A DNA stretch of 64,000 bases, from contig CAIFEY010000008.1 in NCBI GenBank assembly GCA_903789635.1, positions 1-64,000 of the forward strand, given 5' to 3'. Below are positions 10,546 through 17,831 of the stretch, piece by piece; the stretch's first letter is position 1; every line of letters begins with the position of its first letter. The translations under genes were made by a program, and so were the position numbers. Source of the stretch: an uncultured Eubacteriaceae bacterium. GTDB lineage: Bacteria; Bacillota; Clostridia; Peptostreptococcales; Anaerovoracaceae. The notes beneath the pieces are model-generated. The model had not been told where the DNA came from. It saw only the letters and a list, made by a program, of their open reading frames with translations, and did not search any database.

Positions 10546-11475
10546 TTATTTTCCCATCTTTCGGCAAAATCCGACCGCCCAGGAACCCGCGCACCGGGCT
10601 GCCGGATGACCGCTTTCCGCTGAACAGCAACGCCTTGCCCTGCGGGACGGGTAAATTTTGTCCAATAAAAAGACGCTGCCGACAGAAACTCTGACGGCGG
10701 CGCCGCTATTGTTAAGCAATTCACATTTAACTCTTTTTATCTGACTGGCGGCTTCTCGCTTCTGGTCGGCAATCCGCCTCGCCGCGCCCCCGTGCCGTGG
10801 GTAGAGCCGCACGTACGGGAAGAAAAACGACACGATCGGAAGGATCAGGAACATGTAGATCGCCGGCTTGGTGAAGAAGAACGATAGCACCATCAGCACA
10901 CCGTTCAGCACGATGCCCCAGAAGATGCGCAGGAGCATGAACCCCCGGTAGACCGTCGAGTACAGCTTGAGCTTTTTTCGGTGTGCGACGAAGAACACGA
11001 GCGCCTCCAGCACTGTCGCGACGAAGTAGACGAAGCCGAAGTTGATCACCGCCCTCCTGTTCATGTCGGCCATGATCCACTTGGTCATGATCGGGATCAG
11101 CGCGAGCGCCGCGAGGAACAGGAAGTCGGAGACGACGACCCAGTGATCGGCCTCTTCAAACGTCGTGAAAGTCCGGTGCAGCTCGTACCAGAAGTCCGCG
11201 ACCATGAAGAAGCTCACGATGAAGATGAAGATGTTCTCCCTGAACGCGTGGATGCTGTACGTGTCCGACGGGTACGGGATCCCCAGGATCATGATCGTGA
11301 TGAAGATCGCGATGACCCCGTCGTTGAAGTTCTCCAGGTGCGCCTTCAGCCGGCCCCCTAGCTCCTTCCGGTGCGAGATGATCGATTCCTCCAGCTCCCG
11401 GACCTCCTCCTCGTCCATCTGCGCGCGCCGGCGCAGCTCCTCTTCGATTCGTTTTTCCCTTCTCGTCTTACTCAT
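10546..11475 (-). CDS. TMEM175-like (DUF1211) membrane protein, putative K+ channel
   Basis: A charged N-terminus (about 45 residues) is followed by LENFNDGVIAIFITIMIL, which fits the first-helix signature of bacterial TMEM175 channels (F-S-D-G-V-x-A-I), with N in place of S. About six hydrophobic segments follow, up to residue 230. The family conducts K+ in other species; this is inferred here. The last 40-odd residues (from LLDKIYPSRRARR) are Arg- and Cys-rich and unlike a membrane protein tail. They are translated from an intergenic repeat element (10562-10663), so the native end may be earlier and the stop lost. The gene starts 19 bases after ferritin and is probably cotranscribed with it. 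Confidence 0.75.
   Translation of the reverse strand: MSKTRREKRIEEELRRRAQMDEEEVRELEESIISHRKELGGRLKAHLENFNDGVIAIFITIMILGIPYPSDTYSIHAFRENIFIFIVSFFMVADFWYELHRTFTTFEEADHWVVVSDFLFLAALALIPIMTKWIMADMNRRAVINFGFVYFVATVLEALVFFVAHRKKLKLYSTVYRGFMLLRIFWGIVLNGVLMVLSFFFTKPAIYMFLILPIVSFFFPYVRLYPRHGGAARRIADQKREAASQIKRVKCELLNNSGAAVRVSVGSVFLLDKIYPSRRARRCCSAESGHPAARCAGSWAVGFCRKMGK
10562..10663. repeat. Intergenic inverted-repeat element E1
   Basis: Ends CGGCAAAATCC and AAATTTTGTCC are imperfect inverted repeats about 100 bases apart, with small hairpins inside (CCCG...CGGG, GCTGAACAGC). On the minus strand the right end, CTGGGCGGTCGGATTTTGCC, resembles elements at 17976 and 38105. The element lies inside the 3' end of the TMEM175-like ORF. 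Confidence 0.5.
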
Positions 11476-12193: not shown

Positions 12194-13138
12194 CTACCAG
12201 GAGAATTCTTCTATAATATCGGGATTCTCCGGTAATTCCGAGAATTCCCCACTCCTGTGCCGTCCCTTCTCCCGGAGCAGCATGCCTGCAATCTCGACGC
12301 GCCTCTCACGGCTCGCCCTGTCCGTGAACCGCTGCAGGTCCACTTCCTTGATCAGCCCGCCGTCGATCAGGAACGCCGCCGCCTTTCCGTCGCCCTTCGC
12401 AATCGCGATGTCGAGCAGGCTGCCTGCGCGCGCCCTGACGTATGCCGCGGTGTTCGGCCGCTGGTCTTCAAGCGCCTCGATGCTCTCGTATCCGGCTTTG
12501 CATTCGTCCGCGCAGCTTTCTTCGACAAAGTCTGCCCGCCCCGCCAATTCACCGCACCTGCCGTTCAGCCCATCCATGCACGTAAACGCCGCGAGCCGCT
12601 GCACCTGCCGCGGGCAGTCCGGGAACCGGTCATCCATGACCAGGACACCCGTAAGATCCACGCACGTCCTCAGCGCCTCCCTCGCGATGAAGCTGACGCT
12701 GCCCGGAAACGAGACCACGTTAAGGTCCCCGCAGCCGTAGAAGAACATCTCGTCGACCTGCCTGGTCCCCTCCGGAAGAACTGCCCTCTTCAGCCTCCAG
12801 CAATGCTGGAAGATCCCGCAGCCGACCTTCCGGACCGTTCGCGGGAACACGACCTCTTCCAGCGCGTGCAGCCCCGAGAAGCAGTAATTACCAATTTCTT
12901 CCACACCATCCGGCAGGACGATCCGCCGGACGTTCTCTATTCCACCATTGCCGTCTTTGCCGCCTTTGCAGTCAGTCCCGCCCTGCTGCCTCAGGTTCTC
13001 CGCGGTGACACGCAGAACCCCAGAAGGGATATATAATTCGCCCATTCCCGCAGCTGCGTCCGCCCGCAGAGGCGCCGCGGCAGCCTCCTCAGCGGCATTC
13101 CTGTTATCCACGCTTTCGATCTCGCTCAGCTTACTCAT
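12194..13138 (-). CDS. LRR (BspA-like) protein with ankyrin-like C-terminus
   Basis: Residues about 45-190 contain BspA-type leucine-rich repeats of the form 'L-P-x-G-V-x-x-I-x-x-x-x-F-x-x-C' (LPDGVEEIGNYCFSGL, FPRTVRKVGCGIFQHC, LPEGTRQVDEMFFYGC, FPGSVSFIAREALRTC). The C-terminal part looks like one or two ankyrin repeats (GSLLDIAIAKGDGKAAAFLID). Both modules bind proteins, and no signal peptide is seen, so it probably acts in the cytoplasm. I moved the start to ATG 13138, which overlaps the AAA ATPase stop by 8 bases (ATGAGTAA); the longer track ORF reads through the end of that gene. It is third in the VWA-MoxR-LRR operon and could be its substrate adaptor or client. Confidence 0.7.
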   Translation of the reverse strand: MSKLSEIESVDNRNAAEEAAAAPLRADAAAGMGELYIPSGVLRVTAENLRQQGGTDCKGGKDGNGGIENVRRIVLPDGVEEIGNYCFSGLHALEEVVFPRTVRKVGCGIFQHCWRLKRAVLPEGTRQVDEMFFYGCGDLNVVSFPGSVSFIAREALRTCVDLTGVLVMDDRFPDCPRQVQRLAAFTCMDGLNGRCGELAGRADFVEESCADECKAGYESIEALEDQRPNTAAYVRARAGSLLDIAIAKGDGKAAAFLIDGGLIKEVDLQRFTDRASRERRVEIAGMLLREKGRHRSGEFSELPENPDIIEEFSW

Positions 13139-14915
13139 CGGATTCTGTCCCTGCATACGGGCCCTCCTTCCGCTCTTCACGCAGGTCTTCCGACGGCTCT
13201 GCCGGTTTTTCTGAAGGCGCGCCGGAAACTGCGTCGGCAGGCGCGCCGGAAACCTCATTAGAAGAATCATCTCCAGGATCCGCGATTTCCGAAGCCTTAG
13301 GCTCGCGCGGCCTAAGATCCGCGGCAGACGAGGTCTCGTCTGCGGCCGTCGTCTTTGTCCTGTCCTGCGTCGGCGCTGCGTAGTTGTCTTCCTGGAGGCC
13401 GTGCAGCTTCCTTCGGATGGACGATCCCCTCGACGTGAACTGAAGCTTCTCGCTGTACTCGTCGTAGGCCTCGCAGCCGTAGCGGCCGATGAAGTCCGCG
13501 CAGTAGAAGTCGGCGGTGAGCTCGGTGACTAAAATCAGCATCTCGTGGGACAGCCCGTACGCCTGCTCGCAGAACGCGAAGGTGTGCGTGATCTCCCGGG
13601 AGGAGACGCGCACCAGGTGCCTCAGGTCGTGCAGCTGCTCGTTCATCCGTGACGCGATCAGGTCGCCGGCCAGGGTTCCCTTGTCGTCCCTGCCGCGCTC
13701 GCTGCCCTCGTGCAGGAGCTCCTTCACCCAGGAATCCAGCAGGCGGATCTCGGAGAAGCGGATCTTCTGCTGCTCCTTGTCCATGGATCCGGCTTCCTTT
13801 GCCTTAGCGAGGCCGTCCTGCATGTCCTCGCTCAGGTCCTGGAGGATGTTGATGATCTCGCCGTAGCGGTGGCGGGACGGCTGACCGACACTTTCGCGGA
13901 CACGTTTCTCCAGGTCCGCGAGGCCGGTGCGCCTCCTGTAAACCTCTTGAAGAGGTTCCTTCAGGCGCTCCAGGATCAGCTGAAGCAGCACCAGGCGCTC
14001 ATCAAGGGAGGCGTTATGGGCTCGGTCGATGGTTTCTTTGTCCGCCTTGCCTAATGCGATGCTGTCCACCGGGTAAACGCTCCGATACTCATAGAACAGG
14101 TCGCAGAACGCGGAAAAGTCCTTCGCGATCCGCTCGTTCTGGACGTACTGGCCGATCAGGCGCTCGTCGACCGGGAAGCCCTTCTTCTCGTAGAGCTTGA
14201 GCATGACGGAGAGGTCCATCCAGCCTCTTCCCGTCACGAACTCGGTGCCGTCCACGGTCGTCTCGACGCGGTAGAAGTCGTGCTTTCTGCCGTCCAGGTA
14301 GGCCAGGATCAGCGGGTGCACGCCCTGATTTACCGCGTACGACCGCCATGCATCGTAGTCAGGCTCGATCTCGATCTTCTTCACGCGGTCCCAGGTGACG
14401 ATGTCGAACTCCCTGGCCCCGGCGTTGTACTCCGGCGGGTTTCCAGCGGCGACGATGACCCAGCCGTCCGGGACCCTGTACTCGCCGAACGCCTTGAACT
14501 GCAGAAAGCGCAGCATCGACGGCGCGAGCGTCTCCGACACGCAGTTCAGCTCGTCCAGGAACAGGATGCCCTCCCTGACGGCGGTATCTTCCATAATCTG
14601 GTAAACTGACGCGATGATCTCGCTCATCGTGTACTCCGAGACCTTGTATTCCTTCCCCTGGTACGTCTTCTCCGTGATGAACGGGAGGCCGAGCGCGCTC
14701 TGCCTCGTGTGGTGCGTCATGGAGTAGGAGACAAAGGCGAGACCCAGCTCCTCCGCAGCCTGGCTCGCGATCGCCGTCTTGCCGATTCCCGGAGGCCCGA
14801 CGAGGAAGACCGGCCTCTGCTCCTCCAGCGGGATCACGTACTGCCCGTCCTCGTCCTTCTCCAGACAGCAGGCCGCCGCGTACTTCAGTTGTTCTTTTGC
14901 TTCGTTGATCTTCAT
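13131..14915 (-). CDS. MoxR-type AAA+ ATPase
   Basis: The 594-residue protein has Walker A GPPGIGKT (40-47), Walker B ILFLDELN (117-124) and sensor-1 AAGNPPEYN, as in the MoxR/AAA_5 branch. These ATPases act as chaperones that remodel or load cofactors into partners, usually with a VWA protein encoded next door. Here the VWA gene is directly upstream (59-base gap) and the LRR protein overlaps the 3' end. The middle (330-500) is helical and unassigned. The last 80 residues are Pro/Glu/Ala-rich and probably disordered. The large plus-strand ORFs over it are shadows. Confidence 0.85.
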   Translation of the reverse strand: MKINEAKEQLKYAAACCLEKDEDGQYVIPLEEQRPVFLVGPPGIGKTAIASQAAEELGLAFVSYSMTHHTRQSALGLPFITEKTYQGKEYKVSEYTMSEIIASVYQIMEDTAVREGILFLDELNCVSETLAPSMLRFLQFKAFGEYRVPDGWVIVAAGNPPEYNAGAREFDIVTWDRVKKIEIEPDYDAWRSYAVNQGVHPLILAYLDGRKHDFYRVETTVDGTEFVTGRGWMDLSVMLKLYEKKGFPVDERLIGQYVQNERIAKDFSAFCDLFYEYRSVYPVDSIALGKADKETIDRAHNASLDERLVLLQLILERLKEPLQEVYRRRTGLADLEKRVRESVGQPSRHRYGEIINILQDLSEDMQDGLAKAKEAGSMDKEQQKIRFSEIRLLDSWVKELLHEGSERGRDDKGTLAGDLIASRMNEQLHDLRHLVRVSSREITHTFAFCEQAYGLSHEMLILVTELTADFYCADFIGRYGCEAYDEYSEKLQFTSRGSSIRRKLHGLQEDNYAAPTQDRTKTTAADETSSAADLRPREPKASEIADPGDDSSNEVSGAPADAVSGAPSEKPAEPSEDLREERKEGPYAGTESDE

Positions 14916-14974
14916 TGCTTTCCTGCTTCCTTTATTTCCCTGCTTTCCAGCTTACTTCTGTGCTTCCCCACTTC

Positions 14975-16585
14975 TTAGCGCTCCCAAATCACCTGATACG
15001 CCCATGGCGGAACCTCCGGCGCGTCCAGCTCCTTCCTCAGGAACACAAACGCCGTCTTATAGTCCGGCCGCTTCTTCGGGTAGATGCCACGCCCGTCGGT
15101 AAAATACAGCAGGCCCTGCAGGTGATTGATCTTCCCGGCCTTCCGCATCCGGTCCGCGTACGCGAACACCGGCCGGAAGTCCGTGCCGCCGAGCCCCTTG
15201 ACCGTCATGTTCTTCACCGCCCGGTCGATCTCCGTCCGGCTCCGGATCACGGTCGCCTCCTGGATCCTGGCGTCACACTGCACGATGTGCAGGTTCATCC
15301 GTTCGGAGAACACCTCTTTATTCATCAGGATCCCGCACGTCTCCCGAAGAAAATCCTGCACCAGCGCCCCGCTCGTCGACCCCGACGTGTCGATCGCGAT
15401 GATGAAGTCGCGGATCTGCTTCTCCTGCGACGTCTCCGCCTCCTCGATCAGCGGCAGGTTCCCGTACATCTGCAGCCCGTACGTATACAGGATCGGGTTG
15501 AATTCCTCCATGCTCGGCTTGACGGCGGGCTCTCTCTTCGCGAACTTCATCAGGAAACTTCGGTAATCCTGAGGCTTTCTCTGCATCTCGGAAAGCTCCT
15601 GCATCAGCCACCCGGCCTCGTCCGTGCGCCCCCTGGCGCCCGTTTTCATCTGCGACAAAATATACCCGGACCTGTCCGCCCAGATGCTGCTGAGCTGCTG
15701 GTTCACCTGATCCTCGAACAGGCTGCGGTACGCCGCCCCGTCCTCGTAACGACCATCATCGAAACTCCCTGAACCGTTGGAATCTCGCAGGCGTTCAGTC
15801 TCGCTGCCCTGCGGCCTCCGGACGTTTTCCTCCCCGGAAAACCCGTCAGAGCCCCTGGAATTTGATTTACCATAATCTTTTCTACGTTGACCATTTAGAA
15901 ACCGCATCAGCTCGGCCATATCCATCTCGTGCCACGGCCTGTGCGTGTCCACCCGGAACAGCGCGGCGAGCCTCTTCAGCGAAGCGAGCTCTTCCGCGCC
16001 CGCCTCATCGAAGAGGTATCGGTAGATCCGCTCGGCGGTCAGCATGCCGACGCGTTCCTGCAGCCGGGAGATGACCCGCCGCTGCTCCGCGTCCCGCTCC
16101 AGCCTGAAGCACGGCTTTCCCTGCGAGAGGATGATGCCCTCGACGGCCAGGTCGCACGAGAGGTCCCAGAGGTCCTGCCGCGGCAGGCCGGAGGAGAACG
16201 GGTGCAGGAAAATCACGTGAAGGAGGGCGTGCATGTACGCCCGGCAGACCGCGTTCTCGTTCTGTTCGTAATCCTGGATCACGCGCCCCGGGCTGTACAG
16301 GAACCTGCGCCCGTCGACCGCGTAGTCGGGCGTGCTCTCAGGCGCTGCGGCCGGCTTCAGCGCGTACAGCGCGCTGTCCAGGTACCGCTCCTGCGCTAAT
16401 ATCCTCGCCCTGGCCACTTCGACGATCTCCGCCGCGGCCTCGCGCTCAAGCTGCGCAGACTGTTCAGAGCGTCCAGACTGCGCGGCTTGGCCAGGCTCCG
16501 CAGGTCTTCTGGATTCTTCAGCAGTATGATCGATCCCTGCTGACCCGCCGGACTGCACCGTTTTTCTTGATTCTAGATCCGTCAC
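14975..16585 (-). CDS. VWA protein with degenerate DUF2201-type metallopeptidase domain
   Basis: The C-terminus is a von Willebrand A domain with a complete MIDAS: DTSGS (from 399), the Thr of GGTDF near 467 and the Asp of FTDGRG. The N-terminal half matches the putative metallopeptidase domain that accompanies such VWA domains (VDGRRFLYSPGRVI, then a His motif, then WDLSCDLAVEG). The zinc motif reads HALLHVIFLH (119-128): the histidines remain but the catalytic Glu of HExxH is Ala, suggesting metal binding without proteolysis. The start is GTG behind AAAGGAGGAGGAC. It is first in the operon with the MoxR ATPase, its likely partner. A Ser/Gly/Arg-rich linker lies near 240-280. Confidence 0.8.
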   Translation of the reverse strand: MTDLESRKTVQSGGSAGIDHTAEESRRPAEPGQAAQSGRSEQSAQLEREAAAEIVEVARARILAQERYLDSALYALKPAAAPESTPDYAVDGRRFLYSPGRVIQDYEQNENAVCRAYMHALLHVIFLHPFSSGLPRQDLWDLSCDLAVEGIILSQGKPCFRLERDAEQRRVISRLQERVGMLTAERIYRYLFDEAGAEELASLKRLAALFRVDTHRPWHEMDMAELMRFLNGQRRKDYGKSNSRGSDGFSGEENVRRPQGSETERLRDSNGSGSFDDGRYEDGAAYRSLFEDQVNQQLSSIWADRSGYILSQMKTGARGRTDEAGWLMQELSEMQRKPQDYRSFLMKFAKREPAVKPSMEEFNPILYTYGLQMYGNLPLIEEAETSQEKQIRDFIIAIDTSGSTSGALVQDFLRETCGILMNKEVFSERMNLHIVQCDARIQEATVIRSRTEIDRAVKNMTVKGLGGTDFRPVFAYADRMRKAGKINHLQGLLYFTDGRGIYPKKRPDYKTAFVFLRKELDAPEVPPWAYQVIWER

Positions 16586-16660: not shown

Positions 16661-16700
16661 CCGTCTATTATATCACATTTATCGTTGTTTCTCAGCCGCA

Positions 16701-17831
16701 CTAATCCTCGTCGCTTAAGCCGAGCGGCAGGCGGCCCTTCTGCGCGCCTCTTCCGTACTTTCTCGCAGCGTAGATGAACGCGTCAAAGTTCTCCCGCTTG
16801 GTGCCGATCGGGACCTGGCAGCCGGTTCCCAGGGTGTATCCCATCGGGCTGTCCGCGCCCTTCTCGAGACATTCTTTGCAGGTCTCGATGACCTCGTCGA
16901 TCGTGCCGTTCAGCATGACATCAACCGGCGAGACGTTTCCGACCAGCATGTAGTGGCTGCCCAGGACTTCCTTTGCCTTGAGAAGGTCCTCGGAATTGTC
17001 GACACTGTAGCTCGAGATGTTCAGGTCCAGCATGTGAGACCAGAGCGGGTTCGTCTTCCCGCAGATGTGCAGGCCCGGCTTTCTGCCCGTGATCTCGTAG
17101 AGGCCGTCCATCAGGCGGGACAGATACGGCTCGGAGTAGATCTCGTACTGGCGCGGGCTGAAGATGTCGGCGCAGGAGACCGGATCGCAGATGCCGCACG
17201 GCATCGGGCCGAATTCCTTCACCATCATGTCCACCCAGGCGAGCGAGTGGTCCACGCAGAAATTCAGGAGGTCGGCAAATTTCTCCCTGTGCTTCATCGT
17301 ATCCCGGAGCAGCAGCTCGATCGGGCGGATCGCCGCCGCCGTCGTGACTGGCCCCGCGACGACCGTGTTCACGCCCATGTCCGGGAACGCGTCCTTCAGC
17401 TCGCGGCAGCGCTGCAGCATGGACTGATACAGCGGGTTCTTATACGGGTCGTCCTTCAGGACCTCCTCAAGCCCCGAGAAATCCGGCCTGTCGAGCACGA
17501 ACTTCGCGACGGAGTCGATGCCGACCTCCGGGAAGTGCATCTCGGACCCGACCGCCTGGCCGACCGTCCGGAGCCTCAGGCCGACCTTGATTCCTTCGAT
17601 CCCGAACTCCTCCCTGCGCCGCCTCAGCACGTCGATCATGACCTTGGTCCCGTCCAGGCTCTGCGCCGTCGTGTAGCCGAAGATGTCCGTCATCGCCTCC
17701 TCGTTGCTCTGCAGGGAATACGGGATGTGGTCGACCATCTCGCCCGCCGCGTACTTGGCGCCGCGCTCCGCCTGCGTCATCGTCTCCTCCGGGAGCTCTG
17801 CCATCCTCCTCTTCAATTCCTGATAATCCAT
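16701..17831 (-). CDS. Uroporphyrinogen decarboxylase / MtaA-type methyltransferase family protein
   Basis: The 376-residue TIM-barrel protein belongs to the UroD family (PF01208-type), on the branch with corrinoid methyltransferases rather than haem synthesis. Visible marks are CGICDPVSCADIFSP, LHICGKTNPLWSHML and YTLGTGCQVPIGTKREN; the last two carry His and Cys residues that bind zinc in MtaA/MtbA relatives. No corrinoid protein or haem gene is nearby, so the substrate is unknown. It is monocistronic, with a promoter 50 bases upstream and a terminator downstream. SD TTGGAGGTGAACG precedes the ATG. Confidence 0.8.
   Translation of the reverse strand: MDYQELKRRMAELPEETMTQAERGAKYAAGEMVDHIPYSLQSNEEAMTDIFGYTTAQSLDGTKVMIDVLRRRREEFGIEGIKVGLRLRTVGQAVGSEMHFPEVGIDSVAKFVLDRPDFSGLEEVLKDDPYKNPLYQSMLQRCRELKDAFPDMGVNTVVAGPVTTAAAIRPIELLLRDTMKHREKFADLLNFCVDHSLAWVDMMVKEFGPMPCGICDPVSCADIFSPRQYEIYSEPYLSRLMDGLYEITGRKPGLHICGKTNPLWSHMLDLNISSYSVDNSEDLLKAKEVLGSHYMLVGNVSPVDVMLNGTIDEVIETCKECLEKGADSPMGYTLGTGCQVPIGTKRENFDAFIYAARKYGRGAQKGRLPLGLSDED

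Follow-up and report, generated by a model that had tools for sequence, protein, structure and literature searches.

A MoxR-VWA gene pair linked to an LRR/ankyrin-type repeat protein in gut Clostridia and Coriobacteriia, and its possible action as an adaptor-guided remodelling machine

Three genes on the minus strand

The window analysed here is a stretch of 64,000 nucleotides from an uncultured Eubacteriaceae bacterium (contig CAIFEY010000008.1, positions 1 to 64,000). It carries a minus-strand group of three genes encoding a VWA protein, a MoxR-like AAA+ ATPase and a cytoplasmic leucine-rich repeat (LRR) protein, the last referred to below as the third protein (Table 1). A preliminary description had reported these three open reading frames and the 59-nt gap between the VWA and MoxR genes, and all were recovered at the same positions and on the same strand. 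The 8-base overlap that it gave for the MoxR and LRR genes has to be revised. That figure rests on an ATG at 13138; a better Shine-Dalgarno sequence, GGAAGGAGGG, lies ahead of an in-frame ATG at 13156, and a start there makes the overlap 26 nt. The promoter-like site upstream of the operon came from a consensus scan that returned 2 sites against 1.5 expected by shuffling, a count close to chance. A gene for a TMEM175-type potassium channel is found at 10546-11475 (-), close to a ferritin gene. A search for plasmid carriage of the locus gave no match.

Table 1. Features of the three-gene locus (window coordinates)
Feature	Coordinates	Strand	Remarks
VWA protein gene	14975..16585	-	536 aa; GTG start; strong Shine-Dalgarno sequence AAAGGAGGAGG ahead of the GTG
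VWA-MoxR intergenic gap	14916..14974	-	59 nt
MoxR-like AAA+ ATPase gene	13131..14915	-	594 aa
Third gene, cytoplasmic LRR protein	12194..13156	-	320 aa from ATG 13156; 314 aa from 13138; ORF opens at 13270
Promoter-like site CTGAGA-17-TATAAT, extended -10	16667..16695	-	upstream of operon; consensus scan alone
H119xxxH123CxxxH128...D145xxxE149-type signature	16139..16231	-	catalytic Glu of HExxH missing; HALLH in the window
MIDAS DxSxS, D399-S403	15377..15391	-	T468 and D497 complete the site
Walker A GPPGIGKT	14775..14798	-	glycines and Lys invariant in alignment
HHTRQS motif, signature of the MoxR clade	14697..14714	-	invariant in 32 sequences
BspA-type LRR region	12638..12934	-	LRR_5 (PF13306) 2e-17 in the Pfam scan, above cut-off; 7e-18 in the genome search
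Helical C-terminal domain (CTD)	12242..12481	-	profile A6 match 1.3e-17; the window is 1 of the 32 rows of A6
C-terminal tail EEFSW	12197..12211	-	window version of the acidic/aromatic tail (tail survey)

The MoxR-like protein matched the Pfam families AAA (2e-8) and AAA_5 (1e-7) above cut-off, and its Walker A and Walker B motifs are intact; with the VWA partner, these features bear out its earlier assignment as a MoxR AAA+ protein. The HHTRQS motif also served as a genome-wide probe. Over its first ~510 residues the protein is 41-50% identical to its triad relatives and 35-37% identical to an outgroup MoxR clade (loci L096-L099), while its last ~85 residues form a tail that is not common to most relatives. 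None of the curated MoxR subfamily models reached cut-off with this protein, the bpMoxR match included, and no NCBIfam model scored above cut-off for any of the three proteins. When solved structures were searched by sequence, the MoxR-like protein returned generic AAA+ matches only, and the VWA protein nothing informative.

The VWA protein, 31-39% identical to its triad relatives, has a degenerate metallopeptidase-like domain followed by a C-terminal VWA domain. Both parts scored above the Pfam cut-offs (DUF2201, 3e-12, 47.1 vs 26.4 bits; DUF2201_N, 4e-10, 40.2 vs 23.2 bits), and the scan detected no extra or effector domain. Most other DUF2201_N members carry HExxHxxxxH...DxxxN. The catalytic Glu of the HExxH motif is missing in all 31 aligned relatives, so that by its motif an active metallopeptidase was ruled out, and the domain is probably not a working peptidase. 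H119, H123, H128 and D145 are invariant across the same 31 relatives, and E149 is almost invariant, being missing in the outgroup. Hence the domain has lost its catalytic Glu but retained its potential metal ligands, and we infer a second role for it. The metallopeptidase-like domain of the preliminary description is present, with HALLH in place of HExxH. The MIDAS residues D399, S401, S403, T468 and D497 are invariant in 31 sequences, and the AF2 model matched VWA domains in Foldseek, including MDN1-MIDAS/NLE1 at 3e-4.

The AF2 model of the third protein (a single chain, like the other AF2 models) comprises a confident LRR part, a helical C-terminal part and a disordered N-terminus. The LRR region has a pLDDT above 90, and its best Foldseek matches are BspA-like LRR structures such as 4gt6. 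These matches and the LRR_5 score agree with the description of the protein as a BspA-type LRR protein. The ankyrin-like end also ascribed to it could not be confirmed: although the model shows a helical C-terminal part, the window protein matched no Pfam ankyrin family. An N-terminal hydrophobic segment occurs in only one of the 89 triad third proteins, which otherwise lack a signal peptide; a secreted or surface-anchored BspA-type protein was thereby ruled out.

Of the trio, the third protein shows the least conservation, with 20-27% identity within its own subfamily. Across the third proteins the N-terminal repeats range in length from roughly 100 to more than 800 residues. Among the 34 third proteins scanned with Pfam, 30 carry LRR_5 and two ankyrin repeats only; DUF4132 was found in two further ones examined separately (L111:4142-5500 and L109:11213-12733). 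Apart from LRR, ankyrin and DUF4132, the scans matched nothing, and in particular no enzymatic or toxic domain. A single HMM of the CTD, which is ~95 residues long, matches the LRR, ankyrin and DUF4132 proteins alike.

The usual ending of the third proteins is either an acidic/aromatic/Leu tail (DFSL, EFEL, DYSL, DMWEL) or a PF-type tail, WDPFA. A pattern written after inspection of these tails matched 37 of 89 third proteins defined by adjacency, compared with 23 of 444 neighbour genes (p 2e-17). We relied on this adjacency-defined set; an earlier test was partly circular, because the motif had seeded its CTD set. The tails are heterogeneous, the CTD is internal rather than terminal in 35 of 125 cases, and a loose form of the pattern is also present in 59 of 243 VWA/MoxR proteins. 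In the outgroup clade the partner belongs to a divergent protein family, ankyrin-like in one member; of six copies examined, five have a tail that reads RYEL, RYGL, YDFET or TYDL. Genes for a UvrD-nuclease, GmrSD, a WYL-domain protein and a second AAA+ protein lie near some of these outgroup loci.

Linkage and co-occurrence among relatives

When 199 genomes from the window's family were searched with the MoxR protein, a strong homologue (E value below 1e-30) was present in 36 of them. At the wider loci of the family, VWA and LRR genes adjoin the MoxR gene in nearly all cases and the flanks are mostly unrelated; the LRR gene follows MoxR, lies between VWA and MoxR, or precedes VWA. A collection of species-representative genomes contained at least 584 MoxR relatives. 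The best 80 of these loci, from Lachnospiraceae, Oscillospiraceae, Ruminococcus, Mogibacterium and Coriobacteriia, show the same gene pattern, and cultured hosts of the trio include Paraeggerthella hongkongensis, Gordonibacter, Ruminococcus flavefaciens and Mogibacterium kristiansenii. MoxR relatives are also encoded by unannotated faecal contigs labelled 'Bacteriophage sp.' (MT837836 and six others), possibly bacterial DNA in a virome.

Absence of the LRR gene beside MoxR-VWA in all relatives had been named as the result that would refute the proposal. It is not what was observed. In the pooled set, 89 of 116 loci have an LRR/ankyrin-type third gene within two same-strand genes of MoxR, in three orders (46/18/15). 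A CTD-bearing protein lies within 4 kb of MoxR at 96 of the 116, and 14 of the 20 loci that lack one are stretches ending within 2 kb, at a contig or locus end. When the position of the third gene was placed on the MoxR tree, at least 15 changes were counted with the linkage kept; the count is approximate, since the tree was a quick one with many weak branches. We considered whether an abundant LRR gene might have come to lie here by chance, and ruled this out: a profile search of the window genome found the third gene to be its sole LRR_5 match, and the linkage has outlasted those rearrangements. That single match, and the recurrence of the triad across families and phyla, take the linkage beyond chance.

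Co-occurrence of the families, proposed earlier as a check, was examined with profile A6, which represents the CTD alone, run against the same 199 genomes. The CTD was found in 36 genomes and MoxR in 36, with 33 genomes holding both (Fisher p about 1e-30, with genomes treated as independent and species relatedness uncorrected). The exceptions are few. Three MoxR genomes gave no CTD match: two (G008 and G189) fall in the divergent outgroup clade, and in the third (G119) a triad-type locus (L081) is truncated at the end of its contig and outgroup-type copies (L098) are also present. The three CTD genomes without MoxR comprise two borderline matches and one 70%-complete assembly (G150).

Third genes occur in tandem at several loci (L109, L106, L121, L173), and several MoxR-bearing genomes contain further CTD-LRR genes that are unlinked to the triad. 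In tandem paralogues the CTD is 95% identical and the repeats 54% at L109, and the corresponding values at L106 are 57% and 26%. A CTD more strongly conserved than the repeats is seen in some pairs only and was not counted as evidence. At L211, L212, L213, L214 and L221, CTD-LRR genes of about 280 aa stand alone; in the four scanned (L212, L213, L214 and L221) the neighbour is a CLC chloride channel gene, in differing orientation.

Possible roles of the trio

A constant C-terminus joined to variable repeats fits a protein with one end for docking and the other for recognition. Our preferred reading is that the trio may form an adaptor-guided MoxR-VWA remodelling machine, in which the LRR/ankyrin protein would be an exchangeable recognition subunit. 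To this reading, drawn from sequence comparison, we give about an even chance. The MoxR protein would form an ATP-driven ring, and the VWA protein would be its co-chaperone, gripping partners through the MIDAS metal site. By analogy with CbbQO, NorQD (PMC13036017) and Rea1, the ring would act by way of the VWA protein to bring about a conformational change. The repeats of the third protein would bind the client, while its CTD and tail would dock onto the MoxR-VWA pair. The MIDAS of CbbO binds an acidic residue of its client (PMC4660213), and MIDAS binding of an acidic residue is likewise known for Rea1 (PMC6624252); here the tail carboxylate might sit on the MIDAS ion. The clients probably vary by lineage.

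However, the linkage, the co-occurrence and the conserved CTD would also be expected if the motor gripped its client by the CTD and tail. The repeat protein would then be a dedicated client or effector that MoxR-VWA folds, assembles or switches and that acts onward itself, and known MoxR-VWA pairs do mostly have a linked or fixed client. We regard this alternative as rather unlikely. No enzymatic or toxic domain turned up in the Pfam-scanned third proteins, and the replacement of LRR by ankyrin repeats with the CTD kept makes a recognition module likelier than a single conserved effector.

The tandem third genes and the unlinked CTD-LRR copies suggest one motor with several adaptors. Extending the adaptor reading on this basis, one could picture a split, NLR-like bacterial machine, with one MoxR-VWA motor and many swappable LRR, ankyrin or DUF4132 sensors, some encoded elsewhere, which plug in via the common CTD and a short tail that the metal site of the VWA protein would recognise. 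We offer this extension tentatively, as a possibility that may well not hold. If it were true, a cell could direct a single motor towards many targets in its interior.

The genes around the triad were examined for other roles. Directly upstream of the triad in the window is a URO-D family gene (16701-17831, -), one of 6 URO-D matches in the genome. In a second genome of the same family (G076, contig C18), five of its six URO-D matches surround the triad. A third (G171, C7) has, on one strand, the order VWA-MoxR-URO-D-B12 protein-RACo-URO-D-LRR, and in a fourth (G032, C12) the sole RACo gene of the genome adjoins VWA. The adjacency to corrinoid genes in these four genomes, along with the H/C/H/D/E cluster in the N-terminal domain of the VWA protein, would suit a NorQD-like chaperone for cofactor or metal insertion, acting here on corrinoid methyltransferase systems. 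The proximity was noticed after the fact, however, and the majority of triads lack a constant metalloenzyme neighbour. RACo is missing from 10 of the 18 triad-bearing genomes tested, so that a corrinoid role is not general and corrinoid systems would be at most a lineage-specific client. We consider the cofactor explanation improbable.

The preliminary description had also suggested surveillance, with phage challenge as a test. The MoxR-VWA pair with its cytoplasmic repeat protein is consistent with the adaptor half of that proposal, and the surveillance half found no backing. Were the trio an intracellular anti-phage conflict system, kin to the MoxR-VWA ternary systems, the LRR/ankyrin protein would be the sensor of the invader. 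The plan of a motor, a VWA protein and a variable third protein matches the published one (PMC7159879, PMC8195603), and the patchy distribution, the several copies per genome, the divergent versions within one genus and the fast-evolving third protein would fit as well. Against this, PADLOC gave no defence assignment and no convincing match for the three proteins, and the Pfam scans detected no effector domain and no match to VMAP, iSTAND, FtsH or beta-propeller. The triad neighbours are mostly metabolic or housekeeping genes, among which defence-like matches are merely scattered, so a defence island was set aside; the neighbourhood survey found no constant fourth gene beside the triads. Moreover, it is mostly in multicellular bacteria that the published ternary systems are enriched, and the hosts here are mostly gut anaerobes. 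An anti-phage role thus seems very improbable.

Comparison with known MoxR-VWA systems

A search of papers on MoxR, VWA, LRR, BspA and DUF2201, whose scope excluded most subscription journals and all preprints, found no description of the trio. As judged from sequence, the trio is a real, conserved and apparently undescribed variant of the known MoxR-VWA ternary theme, and it is common in gut Clostridia and Coriobacteriia. MoxR-VWA pairs are widespread, and for very few of them is the choice of client known. A separate recognition subunit with changing repeats and a constant docking domain would provide a handle on that choice, along with a docking motif that can be tested.

A MoxR protein (YehL), a VWA protein (YehP) and a DUF4132 protein (YehI) are likewise encoded in one locus of E. 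coli, yehI-yehL-yehM-yehP-yehQ. Specific homology to YehL and YehP was not found (hhalign probability 10% and 2%, respectively), nor was the CTD in YehI. With the BspA-type LRR surface proteins, the third protein shares the LRR_5 repeats and the Foldseek matches; it differs in having no signal peptide, in possessing the CTD and in being encoded beside an ATPase. In Rea1/midasin acting on Rsa4 or Ytm1, too, a VWA/MIDAS domain grips an adaptor-like ligand, which the AAA+ ring removes, but Rea1 is a single giant eukaryotic protein and its ligand is a UBL domain rather than a C-terminal tail.

The published MoxR-vWA ternary conflict systems, described with VMAP, iSTAND, FtsH and beta-propeller components and later with iSTAND2 and TERNS3 (PMC7159879, PMC8195603), resemble the trio in encoding a MoxR AAA+ protein, a VWA protein and a system-specific third component together. 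Unlike them, the trio has as its third component an LRR/ankyrin protein with a CTD of its own; its VWA protein is of the DUF2201 type, with no fused effector found, and its bpMoxR score falls below cut-off. CbbQO, NorQD and RavA-ViaA share with it the MoxR motor and the VWA partner, but they are two-gene machines with known clients, another VWA N-terminal domain and no separate repeat protein. It is this separate repeat protein that is new in the trio relative to the known MoxR-VWA machines.
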